Origin: Pseudoalteromonas piratica | Lineage (GTDB): Bacteria; Pseudomonadota; Gammaproteobacteria; Enterobacterales; Alteromonadaceae | Assembly (NCBI RefSeq): GCF_000788395.1 | Contig: NZ_CP009888.1 | Span: forward strand, 558,001 to 622,000 | Direction: 5' to 3' | Length of the DNA stretch: 64,000 bases | Part shown: positions 44,241 through 55,139 of the stretch, piece by piece | Layout of the letters: each line of letters opens with the position of its first letter | Numbering within the stretch: the first letter of the stretch is position 1 | Notes under the pieces: generated by a model | What the model saw: only the letters and a program-made list of their open reading frames with translations | Database searches by the model: none | Told to the model about the DNA's origin: nothing | Translations under genes and position numbers: made by a program

Positions 44241-44750
44241 ATGAAGAAACTCCTAATTATCGGCATCGCTTTGTTGCTCCAAACTTTAGCAACCCATGCA
44301 AATGCACTAGACGAAAAGCTCAAAATTTTCGAGCCTTACTTAGGCACATGGGAGTCTACGTTTAGCAATGGTGCGGTAGACGTTAGCCATTGGGAAAGTA
44401 CATTAAATGGCACAACACTGCGCACCTTACATTCAATTAATGAGGGCGCGTATGGTGGCGAATCCCTAATTTTTTGGGATAACAAAAAACAAAAATTAGT
44501 GTTTTTCTACTTCACAACAGCTGGGTTTTATACTCAGGGTGAACTCGAAATAACCGCAGAAAATGAGTTTGTTGCCTTTGAGGATGTAACAGGAAATAAA
44601 GACGGAATCACCAAAGTAAAGTCATCAAGCAAATTAACAGACGATAAGATCACTGTTAGTACTAGTTACTTCAAACAAGGTGAATGGACAGCGCCGGAGT
44701 CTCGCAGCTACACCCGCAGCACTAAAAAAGTAAAATTCAAAGAAATGTAA
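44241..44750 (+). CDS. secreted lipocalin-like protein (DUF1579-like)
   Basis: 169 residues with a signal peptide (LLIIGIALLLQTLATHANA). The mature part begins LKIFEPYLGTWESTFSNG and consists of short beta strands (GTTLRTLHSINEG, QKLVFFYFTTAGFYTQGEL), like DUF1579 and related small-molecule-binding barrels. The GTWE motif is typical. The role is unknown. It is a single gene, and the hairpin just after it has its T-tract on the opposite strand. Confidence 0.75.
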   Translation: MKKLLIIGIALLLQTLATHANALDEKLKIFEPYLGTWESTFSNGAVDVSHWESTLNGTTLRTLHSINEGAYGGESLIFWDNKKQKLVFFYFTTAGFYTQGELEITAENEFVAFEDVTGNKDGITKVKSSSKLTDDKITVSTSYFKQGEWTAPESRSYTRSTKKVKFKEM

Positions 44751-44756
44751 CAGGCA

Positions 44757-44791
44757 TAAAAAAGCCGACCTTGCTCAAAGCAATGTCGGCT
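44757..44791 (-). terminator. leftward terminator without an assigned transcript
   Basis: AGCCGAC-C-TTGCT, loop CAA, AGCAA-T-GTCGGCT: 7 and 5 bp of perfect pairing with one mismatch. The T-tract (six T) follows only on the minus strand; the plus side reads AAATAACC. There is no minus-strand gene between it and the sRNA pair. The minus-strand sequence contains CGACATTGCT. Confidence 0.55.
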
Positions 44792-45032
44792 AAATAACCT
44801 AAGGGAAATAGTTCGTTTAGCAGCGAATTATTGACTGAAAGTGTAACTCCATTAGATTTCACTTTTATTACAAAGAGGATAACCAGAATATAAAATTTTA
44901 TGTTCTTTTAGAAAAAACCTCTGCACAAACAGCCCCCAACCCAGAAACAAAAAATACACCAAGGTTTCCAAAAATAAAAATCCATATAAATCAAAATTTT
45001 AAGTAAGTCACAATGCACAGAATTAAAAATAA

Positions 45033-45047
45033 TGAGAATTATTCTCA
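45033..45047. promoter_or_regulatory. Fur box of sRNA copy 1
   Basis: TGAGAATTATTCTCA is a perfect 7-1-7 palindrome, two symmetric changes from the Fur consensus TGATAATNATTATCA. It ends seven bases before the -35. A second, weaker match overlaps the -10 (45077-45091). Confidence 0.82.
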
Positions 45048-45054
45048 AAAACTA

Positions 45055-45083
45055 TTGACAGACTTTTAGATCTAATTGATAAT
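45055..45083 (+). promoter_or_regulatory. promoter of sRNA copy 1
   Basis: TTGACA, 17 bases, GATAAT: a near-consensus sigma-70 promoter with the start expected near 45090. It is flanked and overlapped by Fur boxes. Confidence 0.85.
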
Positions 45084-45089
45084 CAATCT

Positions 45090-45305
45090 CAACAAAGAAG
45101 CAGTACACGCACTCACTCTTCTTTGTGTTTCTCGACCCTAGTAGCTTATTAATAATGAATTAACTGGCTACGGCTGCTAGCAGCAATACTTCGCGCCCCT
45201 GAAGTTACGTTGCTAGTAGCCAACTTATACGAATTACTTGCTACATTGCTCATATCGGTGACGGTAGATATGAACCCAAAAGGCCTCAAAAGGGGCCTTT
45301 TTTAT
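45090..45305 (+). ncRNA. RyhB-like iron-regulated small RNA, copy 1
   Basis: A transcript of about 216 nt is predicted from the promoter at 45055-45083 to the terminator at 45278-45303. A 5' hairpin of 9 bp (45092-45100 with 45118-45126) carries a 17-base loop. A central stem pairs CTAGCAGC (45177-45184) with GTTGCTAG (45209-45216), extended by GGCTA/TAGCC. A single-stranded stretch carries ACATTGCTCA (45243-45252), a word also found in the E. coli RyhB core. A small hairpin CATATC/GATATG follows, then the GC-rich terminator. There is no ORF or ribosome site. RyhB-type RNAs act with Hfq to repress iron-using proteins when Fur is inactive. The length resembles the long Vibrio RyhB. The name is by analogy. 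Confidence 0.85.
45278..45303 (+). terminator. terminator of sRNA copy 1
   Basis: AAAAGGCCTC, loop AAAA, GGGGCCTTTT and a run of T: ten pairs including one G-U. Confidence 0.9.
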
Positions 45306-45330
45306 TTTCTGTAAAGCCCAAAAAGGTTAA

Positions 45331-45345
45331 TGAGAATTATTATCA
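45331..45345. promoter_or_regulatory. Fur box of sRNA copy 2
   Basis: TGAGAATTATTATCA has one mismatch to the 7-1-7 Fur consensus TGATAATNATTATCA. It ends eight bases before the -35 of copy 2. A second match overlaps the -10, as in copy 1. Confidence 0.85.
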
Positions 45346-45353
45346 AAAAGATA

Positions 45354-45382
45354 TTGACAGACACTTAGATCTAATTGATAAT
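45354..45382 (+). promoter_or_regulatory. promoter of sRNA copy 2
   Basis: TTGACA, 17 bases, GATAAT, exactly 299 bp from the copy 1 promoter. The expected start is near 45389. Confidence 0.85.
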
Positions 45383-45388
45383 CAATCT

Positions 45389-45604
45389 CAACAAAGAAGC
45401 AGTACACGCACTCACTCTTCTTTGTGTTTCTCGACCCTAGTAGCTTTTTAATAGTGAATTAACAGGCTACGGCTGCTAGTAACCGCGCTTTGCGCCCCTG
45501 AAGTTACGTTACTAGTGGCCAGTTTATACGAATTACTTGCTACATTGCTCATATCGGTGACGGTAGATATGAAACCAAAAGGCCTCAGAAAGAGGCCTTT
45601 TTTA
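45389..45604 (+). ncRNA. RyhB-like iron-regulated small RNA, copy 2
   Basis: Second copy of the tandem pair, about 216 nt. It is identical to copy 1 over the 5' hairpin and over the whole block around ACATTGCTCA (45542-45551). Differences cluster in the middle (45445-45520). Its central stem reads CTAGTAAC (45476-45483) with GTTACTAG (45508-45515), so a C-G pair of copy 1 is T-A here and a G-U pair is A-U. These are compensatory changes. It should respond to iron through its own Fur box. The paired arrangement recalls PrrF1/PrrF2 of Pseudomonas. The terminator doubles as that of the convergent gene. Confidence 0.85.
45577..45604. terminator. bidirectional terminator of sRNA copy 2 and the convergent binding-protein gene
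   Basis: AAAAGGCCTC, loop AGAAA, GAGGCCTTTT, with flanking A/T tracts. Its right end overlaps the stop codon of the minus-strand gene starting at 45602. Confidence 0.9.
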
Positions 45605-46405
45605 TTTGTATCCAAGTTGTTCTATTATGTATGCAGATTCAATGTAGTTGCTTGCTTCATTTAACCGCGCTATGACAAAAGCTCGATAATTTTCGCTTTG
45701 CATCACTTTTTCAAAATCAGCTATGAACTGCTTACCGACCTCAGAATTAGCACATGCTAAAAACCCTCTTACCACTTCTTGAGCTTCTTTTAGCGCATAA
45801 ATAAAGTAATCTTGATCAATACGAGCATCTTGTTGACGGCTTTTAAATACCGAAGAATATTCTACAATGCCGTCTAATTTTCCTTGTTTGAGCATCACTT
45901 CTAAACGTTCAGCCTTATTACTACCTGCCCCTAAATATAATCGGTCTGTATTTTCAGCAATGACACTATCCAATTGCTCGCCATAGTTTCGCCCTTTTAC
46001 CACTCCAATTGTGAGTCCAAGAGAAAGAATATGCTGAAAAGATACTGGCTGTGGGACAGATAAAGGTTTATTTAAAATCAAGCGATTAGGTGCATAAACG
46101 ATCAATGGTAAGGTGGAGAAAATAGCGACTTTTTCGCGTTCCAAAGTTCGTGTTTTATTGTATACACAGACATTGTTTTGTTTAGTAATCAACCGCCATT
46201 CACGCTCTCTACTCGCTTGTTGAAAGCTCACTTTATAATCACTTTCCAAAGCCTCTATAACGTAATAGACAAGATTAGAAACCAGGTCGGCCTTGCGCTT
46301 ACCTTGATCAGGCATAAGATCAGTGGCAAAGATAATTTCTTGCTTTGCTGAGCTTGCAAAGCTAATCAATAAAAACGTTGTAAAAATGAAGGATAAACGG
46401 CGCAA
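45602..46405 (-). CDS. periplasmic solute-binding-like protein, TIGR02285-like
   Basis: 267 residues with a signal peptide (FIFTTFLLISFASSAKQ). It has the SBP family 3 pattern but with VCVYNKTRTLERE and an aromatic-poor ligand region like the TIGR02285 group of orphan binding proteins. There is no transport partner nearby. Its end abuts the terminator of the second small RNA. The function is unknown; a sensory role or cell-surface sensing is only a guess. Confidence 0.72.
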   Translation of the reverse strand: MRRLSFIFTTFLLISFASSAKQEIIFATDLMPDQGKRKADLVSNLVYYVIEALESDYKVSFQQASREREWRLITKQNNVCVYNKTRTLEREKVAIFSTLPLIVYAPNRLILNKPLSVPQPVSFQHILSLGLTIGVVKGRNYGEQLDSVIAENTDRLYLGAGSNKAERLEVMLKQGKLDGIVEYSSVFKSRQQDARIDQDYFIYALKEAQEVVRGFLACANSEVGKQFIADFEKVMQSENYRAFVIARLNEASNYIESAYIIEQLGYK

Positions 46406-46467: not shown

Positions 46468-47412
46468 TTAGCGACGATTTTTACGTGCACGAGCACGGCG
46501 TTGTTTTTTCTCTTCTTCACGCGCTTGTTTTTTGGCTTCGGCTTTGGCGCGTAATTCGGCTACCATAATCTCTTCCTCTTCACGCATTTCTGGCGTTTCC
46601 ATTGAAATGCGACCAATTACAGCATCACGCAATTCATTGATTAAGATTTCAGACATTTTATGAGTATCAACCTGATTACCCGAGCGAATACAACCACGTT
46701 TACGCCCTGCTTGTTCAATAAATTCCCAATCTTGCTCTGGCAACTCATCCATTTTATAACGCGATTTTAATAATTCAGGGTAAGCACTCAGTAAATACTC
46801 TGCGGTATAACTCGCCACTTCTTCGTAATTTATTGCAGTATCACGAATTGCACCTGTCGCAGCTAAACGGTAGCCAGAGTTTTCGTTTTCAACTTTTGGC
46901 CATAGCATACCCGGTGTGTCGTACAACATAATGCCATCTTCTAAACGAATCTTTTGCTGCGCTTTAGTTACCGCGGGTTCATTACCTGTTTTTGCCACAA
47001 CACGACCAGCTAACGTATTAATTAATGTAGATTTACCGACATTTGGAATACCCATGATCATGGCTTTTATTTGTTTATCAGCGCCCACTTTATGCGGTAC
47101 TAACTTTTTACATAAATCGTTGATTAAGTGCACTTCGCTCGATTTGTTATTATCAAGTGGTAAGGTTTTCACCCCATCTTCGCGCTCTAGGTAAGTCATC
47201 CATGCTTTGGTCATTTCCGGATCAGCAAGGTCAGCTTTATTTAAAATTTTAATCACGGGTTTGTCACCGCGTAGGTCGCCAACCATTGGGTTTTCACTAC
47301 TGTAAGGAATACGCGCATCCAGCACTTCAATAATCACGTCCATTTGCGGCATGATTTCTTTAATCTCATTGCGCGCCTTATTCATATGACCAGGAAACCA
47401 CTGAATTGCCAT
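46468..47412 (-). CDS. ylqF: ribosome biogenesis GTPase YlqF/RbgA
   Basis: 314 residues with the circularly permuted GTPase order: G4 LNKADLAD first, then G1 GIPNVGKST and G3 DTPGML. The N-terminal QWFPGHMNKARNEI is the YlqF signature. It acts in late 50S subunit assembly. The C-terminal tail is strongly basic (KQRRARARKNRR), suited to rRNA binding. It is divergent from yaeQ across 85 bp. Confidence 0.95.
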   Translation of the reverse strand: MAIQWFPGHMNKARNEIKEIMPQMDVIIEVLDARIPYSSENPMVGDLRGDKPVIKILNKADLADPEMTKAWMTYLEREDGVKTLPLDNNKSSEVHLINDLCKKLVPHKVGADKQIKAMIMGIPNVGKSTLINTLAGRVVAKTGNEPAVTKAQQKIRLEDGIMLYDTPGMLWPKVENENSGYRLAATGAIRDTAINYEEVASYTAEYLLSAYPELLKSRYKMDELPEQDWEFIEQAGRKRGCIRSGNQVDTHKMSEILINELRDAVIGRISMETPEMREEEEIMVAELRAKAEAKKQAREEEKKQRRARARKNRR

Positions 47413-52069: not shown

Positions 52070-53491
52070 ATGGATAATCTCAAACATTTGCTTGCTGATT
52101 CAGAGCTACTGTTAAATGCTGCGGGAGAAGGCATTTATGGTTTTGATTTAGAAGGTAAAGCGGTGTTTATTAATCCCGCAGCAGAACGTATGACAGGCTG
52201 GCAAGCAGGTGAGTTACTAGGTGAAAAGATCCATCAATATCACCACCATAGCCACGCTGATGGCACTCCTTATCCAGCTCATGAATGTAATATTTATGCC
52301 ACCATGCAAGACGGCCAAGAGCGCAGCATTAGCCATGAAGTCTTTTGGCGCAAAGATGGTTCTAGTTTTCCAGTCGAATACACCTCTACCCCGGTTTATA
52401 AAGACGGTAAAATTATCGGGGCAGTGGCAATTTTCCGCGATGTAACTGAGCAACAAGAGAGCGATCGCGCATTACGTGAAGCGCTTGCGCAAGTGCAAGC
52501 ATTATCCGAACAACTGCAGGCCGAAAACACCTACCTGCAAAGTGAAATCGACGAAAACTGGAGTGATTCAGGCTTAGTTGGCCAAAGTCCACGTTTTAAG
52601 CAGTTACTTGAACAAGTCAGTTTAGTCAGTAAAACGGACAGTACCGTATTGATTTTGGGTGAGAACGGCACAGGTAAAGAACTGATTGCACGTAATATTC
52701 ATCGCCTTAGCAAACGCGCTCACAACACCCTAGTGAAAGTAAATTGTGCAGCGTTTACTCCTAGCCTGCTTGAAAGCGAATTATTCGGCCATGAAAAAGG
52801 CGCTTTTACTGGCGCGACTGAACGCCGTAAAGGACGCTTTGAATTAGCAGATAAAGGCACATTGTTTTTAGATGAAGTTGGCGAGTTAAGCCTTGAAGCA
52901 CAAAGTAAATTGCTGCGAGTTTTACAAGAACAAGAATTCGAACGTGTTGGCGGAAATCAAACCCTAAAAGTTGATATTCGAGTGATTGCAGCAACCAATA
53001 AAGACTTATTAAAAATGGTACAACAAGGCGAATTCCGCATGGATTTATACTACCGCCTCAATGTATTTCCTTTGACCATGCCAGCACTTCGTGAGCGTCT
53101 TGATGATTTACCACTTCTATGCCAAAACATCATTTCAGAACTTGCTCGCAAACTTGGCAAACCAATAAAAGGCATTAGTAAAGCCAGCTTAAAACGTCTT
53201 GCTACTTATCATTGGCCGGGCAATATACGTGAACTGCAAAATGTACTAGAGCGTGAAGTTATTTTAAGCCAAACATCATTGATCCAAATAAAGCACGACT
53301 TCCAGGCCAATTTAGATGCCAGTAATTTTGCCCAACTTACGCTTGCTGAAATGGAAAAGTCTTATATTGAACAAGTCTTGGAGCAATGCGCGGGCAAAAT
53401 TGGCGGTGTTAATGGCGCAGCTAAATTATTAGACTTGCCCGAGAGTACATTACGCTCAAAAATGAAAAAGCTTGGTATATCTCGTATTTAA
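52070..53491 (+). CDS. PAS-domain sigma-54-dependent transcriptional activator
   Basis: 473 residues. A PAS domain (about 10-135; GIYGFDLEGKAVFINPAAERMTGW, AIFRDVTEQ) is followed by a coiled linker and an AAA+ domain with Walker A GENGTGKE (about 203), the sigma-54 contact loop GAFTGA and TLFLDEVGEL. A Fis-type helix-turn-helix (AAKLLDLPESTLRSKMKKL) ends it. The PAS has several histidines (HQYHHHSHADG) that might bind metal or haem. It lies 265 bp upstream of ccoG, and both control regions share a palindromic word. The likely target is ccoG. Confidence 0.93.
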   Translation: MDNLKHLLADSELLLNAAGEGIYGFDLEGKAVFINPAAERMTGWQAGELLGEKIHQYHHHSHADGTPYPAHECNIYATMQDGQERSISHEVFWRKDGSSFPVEYTSTPVYKDGKIIGAVAIFRDVTEQQESDRALREALAQVQALSEQLQAENTYLQSEIDENWSDSGLVGQSPRFKQLLEQVSLVSKTDSTVLILGENGTGKELIARNIHRLSKRAHNTLVKVNCAAFTPSLLESELFGHEKGAFTGATERRKGRFELADKGTLFLDEVGELSLEAQSKLLRVLQEQEFERVGGNQTLKVDIRVIAATNKDLLKMVQQGEFRMDLYYRLNVFPLTMPALRERLDDLPLLCQNIISELARKLGKPIKGISKASLKRLATYHWPGNIRELQNVLEREVILSQTSLIQIKHDFQANLDASNFAQLTLAEMEKSYIEQVLEQCAGKIGGVNGAAKLLDLPESTLRSKMKKLGISRI

Positions 53492-53712: not shown

Positions 53713-53756
53713 ATTAGTGAACTAAGCATTACGTATATCTACCGTCGAGAAATAGT

Positions 53757-55139
53757 ATGAAGTTTGATATCAAAGAAGAAGATCTGATTATTAAGCCCTA
53801 TAAAACAGAAGGGCCTATTTATGTGCGCTCTCAAAAAGGAAAATACCAGCAACTTCGCCGTTATATTGGTTGGGCACTGATGTTGGCGTTTATTCTTATC
53901 CCCTTTATTCCTTACCATGGTCAACAGGCGATACTGCTTGATATCGGCTCGCAACAATTTCGCTTTTTTAATACCACATTATTTCCGCAAGATTTTACCT
54001 TATTGGCCTGGGTCTTTATGGCTGGTGCATTTGCGTTGTTTTTTGTCACGACTTGGCTCGGTCGAGTCTGGTGTGGTTATACCTGCCCGCAAACAGTATG
54101 GATGATGATGTTTATTTGGGTCGAAGAAAAAATCGAAGGAAACCGCAATAAACGCATCAAGCTCGACAAGTCAAAAATGTCATTTGAGAAATTCCGCAAA
54201 AAGAGCCTTAAACATCTCATTTGGGGTGCTATTTCATTTTTTACTGCCACCACGTTTTTAAGTTATTTTGTGCCTGTTGCCGAACTGTACGGCAACCTTA
54301 TCGCTTTGGAATGGTCGGGACTTATTATGTTCTGGGTTGGTTTATTTGCGGTATGTACCTATGGCAATGCGGGCTTTTTAAGAGAAAAAATGTGTATTTA
54401 TATGTGTCCTTATTCACGCTTTCAAGCTGTGATGTTTGATAAGGATACCTATGTTGTTGCCTACGATGAGAAACGCGGCGAGTCACGCGGCCGTCGTAAA
54501 CGCAAAGACGATCCAAAACAACTTGGGTTGGGTGACTGTGTTGACTGCAACCTATGTGTTGAAGTTTGCCCTGCAGGGATCGACATTCGTAACGGTTTAC
54601 AATATGAATGCATTAACTGCGGTGCTTGTATTGATGCTTGCGATGAAACAATGGAAAAATTTAATTATGAGAAAGGTCTCATTAGCTACACCAGTGAACA
54701 TCAATTAGCAGGTCAAAAAACGGATAAATTCCGTTTAAAACTAGTCGGATACGGCTTCTTTACAGGTCTTGTGATTATTACCATGCTGGTGTGGATGAAT
54801 TTACGCGTGCCAATTGAAACTAGCATTTTACGTGACCGCAATGCGCTTTATCGAGTCAATTATGAAGGTCTGACTGAAAACACTTACACCTTCAAAATTA
54901 CCAATAAAACGCAAAATACGCTGACCTATTCGCTCACATTGTTGGAAGATTCTCGCTTTGCATTAAGTGCGCCTCAACAAATTATTATTGCTGCAGGTGA
55001 GATGAGCCAGTTCCCAGTAACTGTGACTGCTGATGCATATGACTTAAAGCAAAAAGTAACTGAGATTGACTTTAAGGTGAAAGCGATAGAGTCACCGGAC
55101 ATACAGATTACAAAGCAATCTAAATTCTACAAACCCTAA
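53757..55139 (+). CDS. ccoG: cytochrome c oxidase accessory protein CcoG (FixG/RdxA)
   Basis: 460 residues. About five hydrophobic spans (the first near 41-57) hold CGYTCPQTVW. Two 4Fe-4S clusters follow in CVDCNLCVEVCPAG and CINCGACIDACDE. An Ig-like FixG C-domain ends it (about 370-460). CcoG reduces Cu(II) for assembly of cbb3 oxidase. No ccoNOP genes are here. The sigma-54 promoter and palindrome point to control by the upstream PAS activator. Confidence 0.95.
   Translation: MKFDIKEEDLIIKPYKTEGPIYVRSQKGKYQQLRRYIGWALMLAFILIPFIPYHGQQAILLDIGSQQFRFFNTTLFPQDFTLLAWVFMAGAFALFFVTTWLGRVWCGYTCPQTVWMMMFIWVEEKIEGNRNKRIKLDKSKMSFEKFRKKSLKHLIWGAISFFTATTFLSYFVPVAELYGNLIALEWSGLIMFWVGLFAVCTYGNAGFLREKMCIYMCPYSRFQAVMFDKDTYVVAYDEKRGESRGRRKRKDDPKQLGLGDCVDCNLCVEVCPAGIDIRNGLQYECINCGACIDACDETMEKFNYEKGLISYTSEHQLAGQKTDKFRLKLVGYGFFTGLVIITMLVWMNLRVPIETSILRDRNALYRVNYEGLTENTYTFKITNKTQNTLTYSLTLLEDSRFALSAPQQIIIAAGEMSQFPVTVTADAYDLKQKVTEIDFKVKAIESPDIQITKQSKFYKP

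Follow-up and report, generated by a model that had tools for sequence, protein, structure and literature searches.

Two tandem units in the genome of Pseudoalteromonas piratica are very likely two copies of a trans-acting small RNA that is repressed by Fur, is found across the genus and executes an iron-sparing response; by sequence comparison, their operator, promoter, terminator, structure and complementarity to four iron-enzyme families are conserved. Iron is limiting for much of the growth of bacteria in the sea, where Pseudoalteromonas is a common genus. Here, we describe the anatomy, distribution and predicted targets of this RNA, starting from a 64,000-nt stretch of the P. piratica genome (NZ_CP009888.1, positions 558,001 to 622,000; the window).

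Results

The two units are direct repeats that share 262 nt at 90% identity, lie 299 nt apart from start to start, and are the only copies shown in this genome. Small RNA 1 (45091–45303, plus strand, ~213 nt) and small RNA 2 (45390–45603, plus strand, ~214 nt) have putative 5' ends placed by promoter spacing; each unit stops at its own intrinsic terminator (45280–45303 and 45580–45603, plus strand, recognised by sequence and fold), and the next gene lies on the opposite strand. No ORF of at least 60 aa is found inside either unit in the ORF listing of the window, and both units fold below all 200 of their dinucleotide shuffles (z of -5.93 for unit 1 and -4.67 for unit 2). The original prediction, of two units spaced by 299 bp in an Alteromonadales-type genome, each with a Fur box, a promoter, no sizeable ORF, ACATTGCTCA and a terminator, is thereby confirmed on both units, the host being a Pseudoalteromonas. 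The gene for the ribosome biogenesis GTPase YlqF (46468–47412, minus strand; NCBIfam TIGR03596 over cut-off) is a conserved neighbour that marks the locus in the genus. Terminator 1 and Fur box 2 are only 27 nt apart (45304–45330), and a PrrH-like read-through RNA spanning both copies is therefore possible. At 44779–44786, within a terminator-like hairpin behind the gene at 44241–44750, AGCAATGT is complementary over 8 nt to ACATTGCT of the RNA, and this may be a coincidence or a decoy.

Units of this kind might also be read as a Csr-type RNA that sequesters a protein, or as a cis-acting leader or attenuator, since the genus has Csr small RNAs that are likewise intergenic and structured (available text of PMC11882849) and weak Phe_leader scores fall at both terminators. 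Either reading is highly improbable. Neither unit contains a single GGA, the motif that a Csr-type RNA would carry many times, the Phe_leader scores (23.2 and 21.4 bits) stay well below the cut-off of 55, and a terminator inside each unit, followed by a gene on the other strand, argues against action in cis. The low-score Rfam matches (Phe_leader, rimP and others) were rejected as far under their cut-offs.

A Fur-type operator on a sigma-70-type promoter, as claimed for each unit, is predicted from the sequence in both. The Fur box of unit 1, TGAGAAT-T-ATTCTCA (TGAGAATTATTCTCA; 45033–45047, plus strand), has 2 mismatches in the 14 defined bases of the 7-1-7 pattern and keeps its position in related copies; that of unit 2, TGAGAAT-T-ATTATCA (TGAGAATTATTATCA; 45331–45345, plus strand), has 1 mismatch in 14. 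Both are followed on the plus strand by a promoter of the form TTGACA-N17-GATAAT, at 45055–45083 in unit 1 (TTGACA 45055–45060, GATAAT 45078–45083) and at 45354–45382 in unit 2 (TTGACA 45354–45359, GATAAT 45377–45382), and the -10 region of the unit 1 promoter holds a second Fur-like half, GATAATCAAT. A promoter with at most 2 mismatches is present in 84/88 copies, and the upstream consensus, built on 84 copies retained out of 88, reads TAAATGAGAATTATTTTCAATTA, then TTGACA-N17-GATAATCAATCTCAACAA. With 69/84 related copies carrying a Fur box of at most 3/14 mismatches, versus 2.5% of shuffled upstream stretches, the RNA family is very probably Fur-controlled.

Within the RNA, a long stem in unit 1 (45172–45221, plus strand, from the predicted fold and covariation) presents the C-rich loop CGCCCCU at 45194–45200, which in unit 2 lies at 45493–45499 (plus strand, predicted fold). 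Downstream on the same strand are the seed UUACUUGC (45234–45241 and 45533–45540), complementary to the sdhC ribosome-binding region; the word ACATTGCTCAT (45243–45253 and 45542–45552), which is partly common to the RyhB core; and, in unit 1, a hairpin CATATC-loop-GATATG (45251–45272) that is defined by alignment and target complements and displays the loop seed GUGACGGUAG at 45258–45267 (45557–45566 in unit 2). Across 52 type-1 units, the central stem carries the loop ACGCCCCU and has 94.0% of its cells paired; pairing falls to 29–43% when the stem partner is slid by 1 to 3 columns. The central stem covaries: two-sided changes number 160 cells versus a shuffled mean of 47, with 0/500 shuffles as high, and are spread over 12 pairs, a number of pairs that 26/500 shuffles reach. 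The 3' module, TTACTTGCTACATTGCTCATATC-NGTGACGGTW-GATATG, is nearly invariant in 73 sequences, and its hairpin is invariant in all 52 units and therefore yields no covariation evidence. In predicted folds the seeds UUACUUGC and ACAUUGCUCAU are about half unpaired (mean 0.53 and 0.44). In two copies (L040 and L077) the 5 nt TACAT are inserted after the sdhC seed and before the RyhB-like word, both of which are intact. A degenerate copy in L089, around 2133–2155 on the minus strand, has a Fur box and promoter; the seeds are apparently separable, because this copy has lost ACATTGCTC and keeps the GTGACGGT loop.

When the 3' module was modelled by covariance, from 73 sequences drawn from 36 genomes, the model matched 107 of the 108 Pseudoalteromonas genomes at E<=1e-5, including all 72 of the 108 that lie outside the model's source genomes. 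One copy is found in 11 genomes, two in 38, three in 33, four in 22, five in 3 and none in 1; G016, a draft of ~180 contigs, has no copy by blastn or by covariance model. By blastn, 35/36 genus genomes match, P. piratica included, and matches in 3/24 genomes outside the genus were rejected, as they cover the terminator part of the query only. An order-wide search of 394 genomes with the model, in which 12 candidates per genome were scored and distant relatives may thus have been missed, matched 4 genus members and gave 3 weak matches in the other 390 genomes. These three were also rejected, L216 being a terminator only and L215 and L217 having neither hairpin nor loop; TTTTTACTTGCTACAATGCTGACAT in L217 is taken as chance. 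A core-pattern scan of named species genomes returned 119 stretches, of which the 80 listed are all Pseudoalteromonas.

The predicted tandem pair stands in the window and is not the only arrangement, as 72/119 stretches are single-copy, 26 have two copies, 19 three and 2 four, at a spacing of 245–675 nt. Type 1 loci, as in the window, adjoin YlqF by tblastn in 32/60 fetched loci, one per genome and in 32/35 blastn-positive genomes. Type 2 loci have another shared setting, with three neighbouring ORF clusters common to 19, 18 and 18 fetched loci, and lie on contig 2 of G008, G012 and G025, whose assemblies are nearly complete. Four second-locus copies (G005:C2, G006:C22, G013:C1 and G026:C60) are ~29–34 kb from a second superoxide dismutase gene, presumed to be of the Mn type.

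Four iron-enzyme families, sodB, sdh, fum and acn, were tested because they are classical RyhB targets, counting loop complements of at least 7 nt from -150 to +40 of the start. In the genes that we take to be Fe-SOD (sodB) from their resemblance to E. coli SodB, a complement of the loop GUGACGGUAG lies at codons 5–8 in 30/30 genomes, as CTACCGTCAC in 29 and as nine nt of CTACCGTCAC in the remaining one. The longest invariant run of the 29 same-length sodB genes is GAACTACCGTCA, and codons 5, 6 and 7 make up three of the six single-codon positions found among 71 invariant residues with at least four codons; this early-codon conservation could have another cause. Fumarase leaders hold a 7- to 10-nt complement of the loop in 30/30 genomes, and its position differs: 10 genomes have it at -6 over the start, 15 at about -56 to -61, 7 at about -25 to -29 and 2 at about -67 to -70, with two sites in some genomes. 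Aconitase B (acnB) leaders contain CGTCACC ~21 nt upstream in 23/24; canonical acnB was not found in the P. piratica genome, where the single PF11791 match is a different 949-aa frame. For sdhC, GCAAGTAA, the complement of the seed UUACUUGC, lies at most 20 nt upstream of the start in 30/30 genomes and is present in none of the other five gene groups tested.

Among controls, a 7-mer complement of the loop is found in 6/19 second SOD genes, 0/14 GTPase genes, 1/48 window genes (ccoG) and 7/375 genes of a wider P. piratica sample (-100 to +35), and GCAAGTAA is near the called start of 0/375. When modules were shuffled and compared on the first 12 orthologues per group, those scoring as low numbered, of 300, 2 for sodB, 3 for sdhC, 4 for fum and 5 for acnB, versus 54 for the second SOD and 252 for the GTPase. 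Complementarity to iron-enzyme mRNAs is conserved, and whole-region duplex energy in P. piratica itself is unremarkable: of 375 background genes, 53 equal or better the pairing of sodB, 41 that of sdhC and 17 that of fum, and an 8-nt run like those in sdhC and fum is reached by 25/375. Since duplex energy does not single out the targets, it is conservation and placement that carry the argument. Searching the P. piratica genome with one mismatch allowed, the 12-nt loop complement ATCTACCGTCAC gave 15 matches (two being the RNA itself and one sodB) versus 28 for the reversed control, hence no genome-wide enrichment; the seed GAGCAATGTAGC gave 17 (two being the RNA itself) versus 8, with no convincing start-site target among the remaining 15. 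The predicted iron-enzyme targets are likely, by conserved complementarity to four families, with GUGACGGUAG and UUACUUGC as the best-supported seeds in place of the proposed ACATTGCTCA.

Further candidate targets came from the P. piratica genome. Upstream of ccoG (53757–55139, plus strand; CcoG by NCBIfam, 4Fe-4S type), the predicted site ATATCTACCGTC (53735–53746, plus strand) is a 12-nt complement of the loop plus 3' stem, 22 nt before the start and in the ribosome-binding region, and is the longest complement among 375 genes. It is kept with one G-U pair in the close relative G002, the only one of 20 other genomes in whose stretches ccoG was found. The gene that immediately precedes ccoG (52070–53491) looks by its sequence to encode a sigma-54-type activator. 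The gene petA (Rieske protein by NCBIfam) has the lowest duplex energy of the 375, and at its probable true start ATGAGCAATG is complementary over 10 nt to CAUUGCUCAU, within the word ACATTGCTCAT. Behind petA is a cytochrome b-type gene, presumably petB, whose NCBIfam matches are under their cut-offs; it has AAGGGGC, the complement of GCCCCUU, at -13. Both the petA and the cytochrome b-type complements are kept in G002, where alone petA was found when sought by position in five other genomes. The ccoG, petA and cytochrome b-type pairings are perhaps real, as after-the-fact candidates from two close genomes. In Dps-type leaders near the array, complements of at least 10 nt occur in 4/20, and Dps is for this reason not claimed as a target; the leaders of L508, L514 and L521 (8 nt in L504) carry TAGCAAGT(AA) at roughly -21 to -26, a feature limited to some species.

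The C-rich words bear on whether iron sparing is the main role at all. CGCCCC and CGACCC are each found in 61/84 copies and are highly exposed in predicted folds (mean unpaired 0.96 and 0.92), and their complements GGGGCG, AGGGGC and GGGTCG are near the start in none of the six tested gene groups, as would suit a Fur-controlled RNA that acts chiefly on other mRNAs through these loops. We consider such a role unlikely: the 3' module is the most conserved part of the RNA and is the part that matches iron enzymes, and the sole background gene with AAGGGGC near its start is the cytochrome b-type gene behind petA.

An iron-sparing RNA would work as follows. With iron present, Fe2+-Fur on the box just upstream of the -35, and perhaps also on the second Fur-like half over the -10, would block the promoter. 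With iron absent, each copy would give an RNA of ~214 nt ending at its own terminator, and its exposed loop GUGACGGUAG and upstream UUACUUGC...ACAUUGCUCAU would pair with ribosome-binding regions or first codons, so that translation of sodB, fumarase, acnB, sdhC and perhaps ccoG and petA would be blocked. From the sequence features we infer Fur binding, the transcription start, help from Hfq, repression and mRNA decay.

Discussion

The units had been proposed as RyhB-like RNAs to be checked against Rfam, and the Rfam model does not recognise them as RyhB. RF00057 has 0 matches at gathering in the window, is not among the 13 Rfam matches at E<=10 in 44950–45700, and has none in the P. piratica genome at E<=0.01. 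Elsewhere in the order it is found in 73/197 genomes, 47 of them over the cut-off, with none in the 14 genomes of the window's family among the matches listed. The core at those loci is mostly GACATTGCTCACATTGCTTCC (variant ACTATTGCTCACATTGCTATTTT), of which only ACATTGCTCA, then (C/T)AT, is common to both RNAs. RyhB adjoins polA in many other families, and a polA gene is present in 12/20 fetched RF00057 regions (one identified as DNA polymerase I); in P. piratica, polA is at 390964 and the RNA at 603028, 212 kb away and beside YlqF. For 30 genomes of the window's family, the 1.5 kb preceding the polA domain contain no RyhB core at 4/18 mismatches or fewer, and two of the genomes (L456 and L464) have a 5-mismatch match that is about chance by estimate. 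Homology to RyhB is accordingly unproven, there being no Rfam score, no polA neighbour and only a shared word of ~10 nt; the RNA looks RyhB-like in function, judging by its operator and complements.

Descent and function are separate questions here, since a true but strongly diverged RyhB orthologue, moved from the polA locus and duplicated, would have the identical mechanism. We hold this origin to be a tenable minority view. The Fur box, length and likely targets are alike, ACATTGCTCA lies within the core of the RF00057 loci of other families, and RF00057 copies are in tandem in other families of the order too. Against it stand the Rfam and polA results above, the lack of any intermediate in 390 genomes outside the genus (12 candidates scored in each), and the weakness of a 10-nt common word as proof of descent.

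On balance, we favour a Pseudoalteromonas with no recognisable RyhB, in which an RNA family of its own would run iron sparing from arrays of one to four copies plus a second locus. One invariant loop of about ten nt would read several iron-enzyme mRNAs and freeze synonymous codons of Fe-SOD, separate seeds would serve sdhC and petA, and the C-rich loops would serve further mRNAs such as that of the cytochrome b gene behind petA. If true, the iron-sparing regulator of the genus is supplied, with four conserved, directly testable target pairs, along with a clear case of RNA target sites that move within a leader (fumarase) and constrain codons (sodB). The arrays also allow one to ask whether extra copies serve to adjust dosage or to share out the targets.

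Several iron-sparing RNAs are known. FsrA, NrrF, IsrR and BrrF share this role and are unrelated in sequence, as judged by Rfam scan, although the exposed C-rich loops of the present RNA are reminiscent of FsrA and IsrR. PrrF of Pseudomonas is shorter than the Pseudoalteromonas RNA, and its family is not among the Rfam matches (window at gathering; 44950–45700 at E<=10). PrrF1 and PrrF2 resemble the present units as tandem iron-sparing siblings (in the available text of PMC4211561). In the excerpted text of PMC11277574, PMC12096840 and PMC11882849, Csr-type Pf1–Pf3 are the only small RNAs of the genus met, and no description of this RNA was found, by title, abstract or passages, in the open-licence PubMed Central literature searched.

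RyhB (RF00057) is the closest likeness, with a Fur-type operator, iron-enzyme targets, ACATTGCTCA and an intrinsic terminator; the Pseudoalteromonas RNA differs in that a hairpin with a loop seed replaces the second half of the RyhB core and in having an extra covarying stem with a C-rich loop. The available part of PMC2964681 reports a V. cholerae RyhB of 215 nt, similar in length, a Shewanella RyhB that its authors' Rfam search missed and that was located by position, and two tandem ryhB copies in Shewanella amazonensis. Given these precedents, neither tandem arrangement nor length is in itself new for a RyhB-type RNA; the novelty lies in a family that spans the genus, in the loop seed and in arrays of greater length. 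S. amazonensis likewise has two tandem Fur-box copies (PMC2964681, same part), but its ryhB has the enterobacterial core, whereas the Pseudoalteromonas arrays reach four copies and are joined by a second locus in many species.
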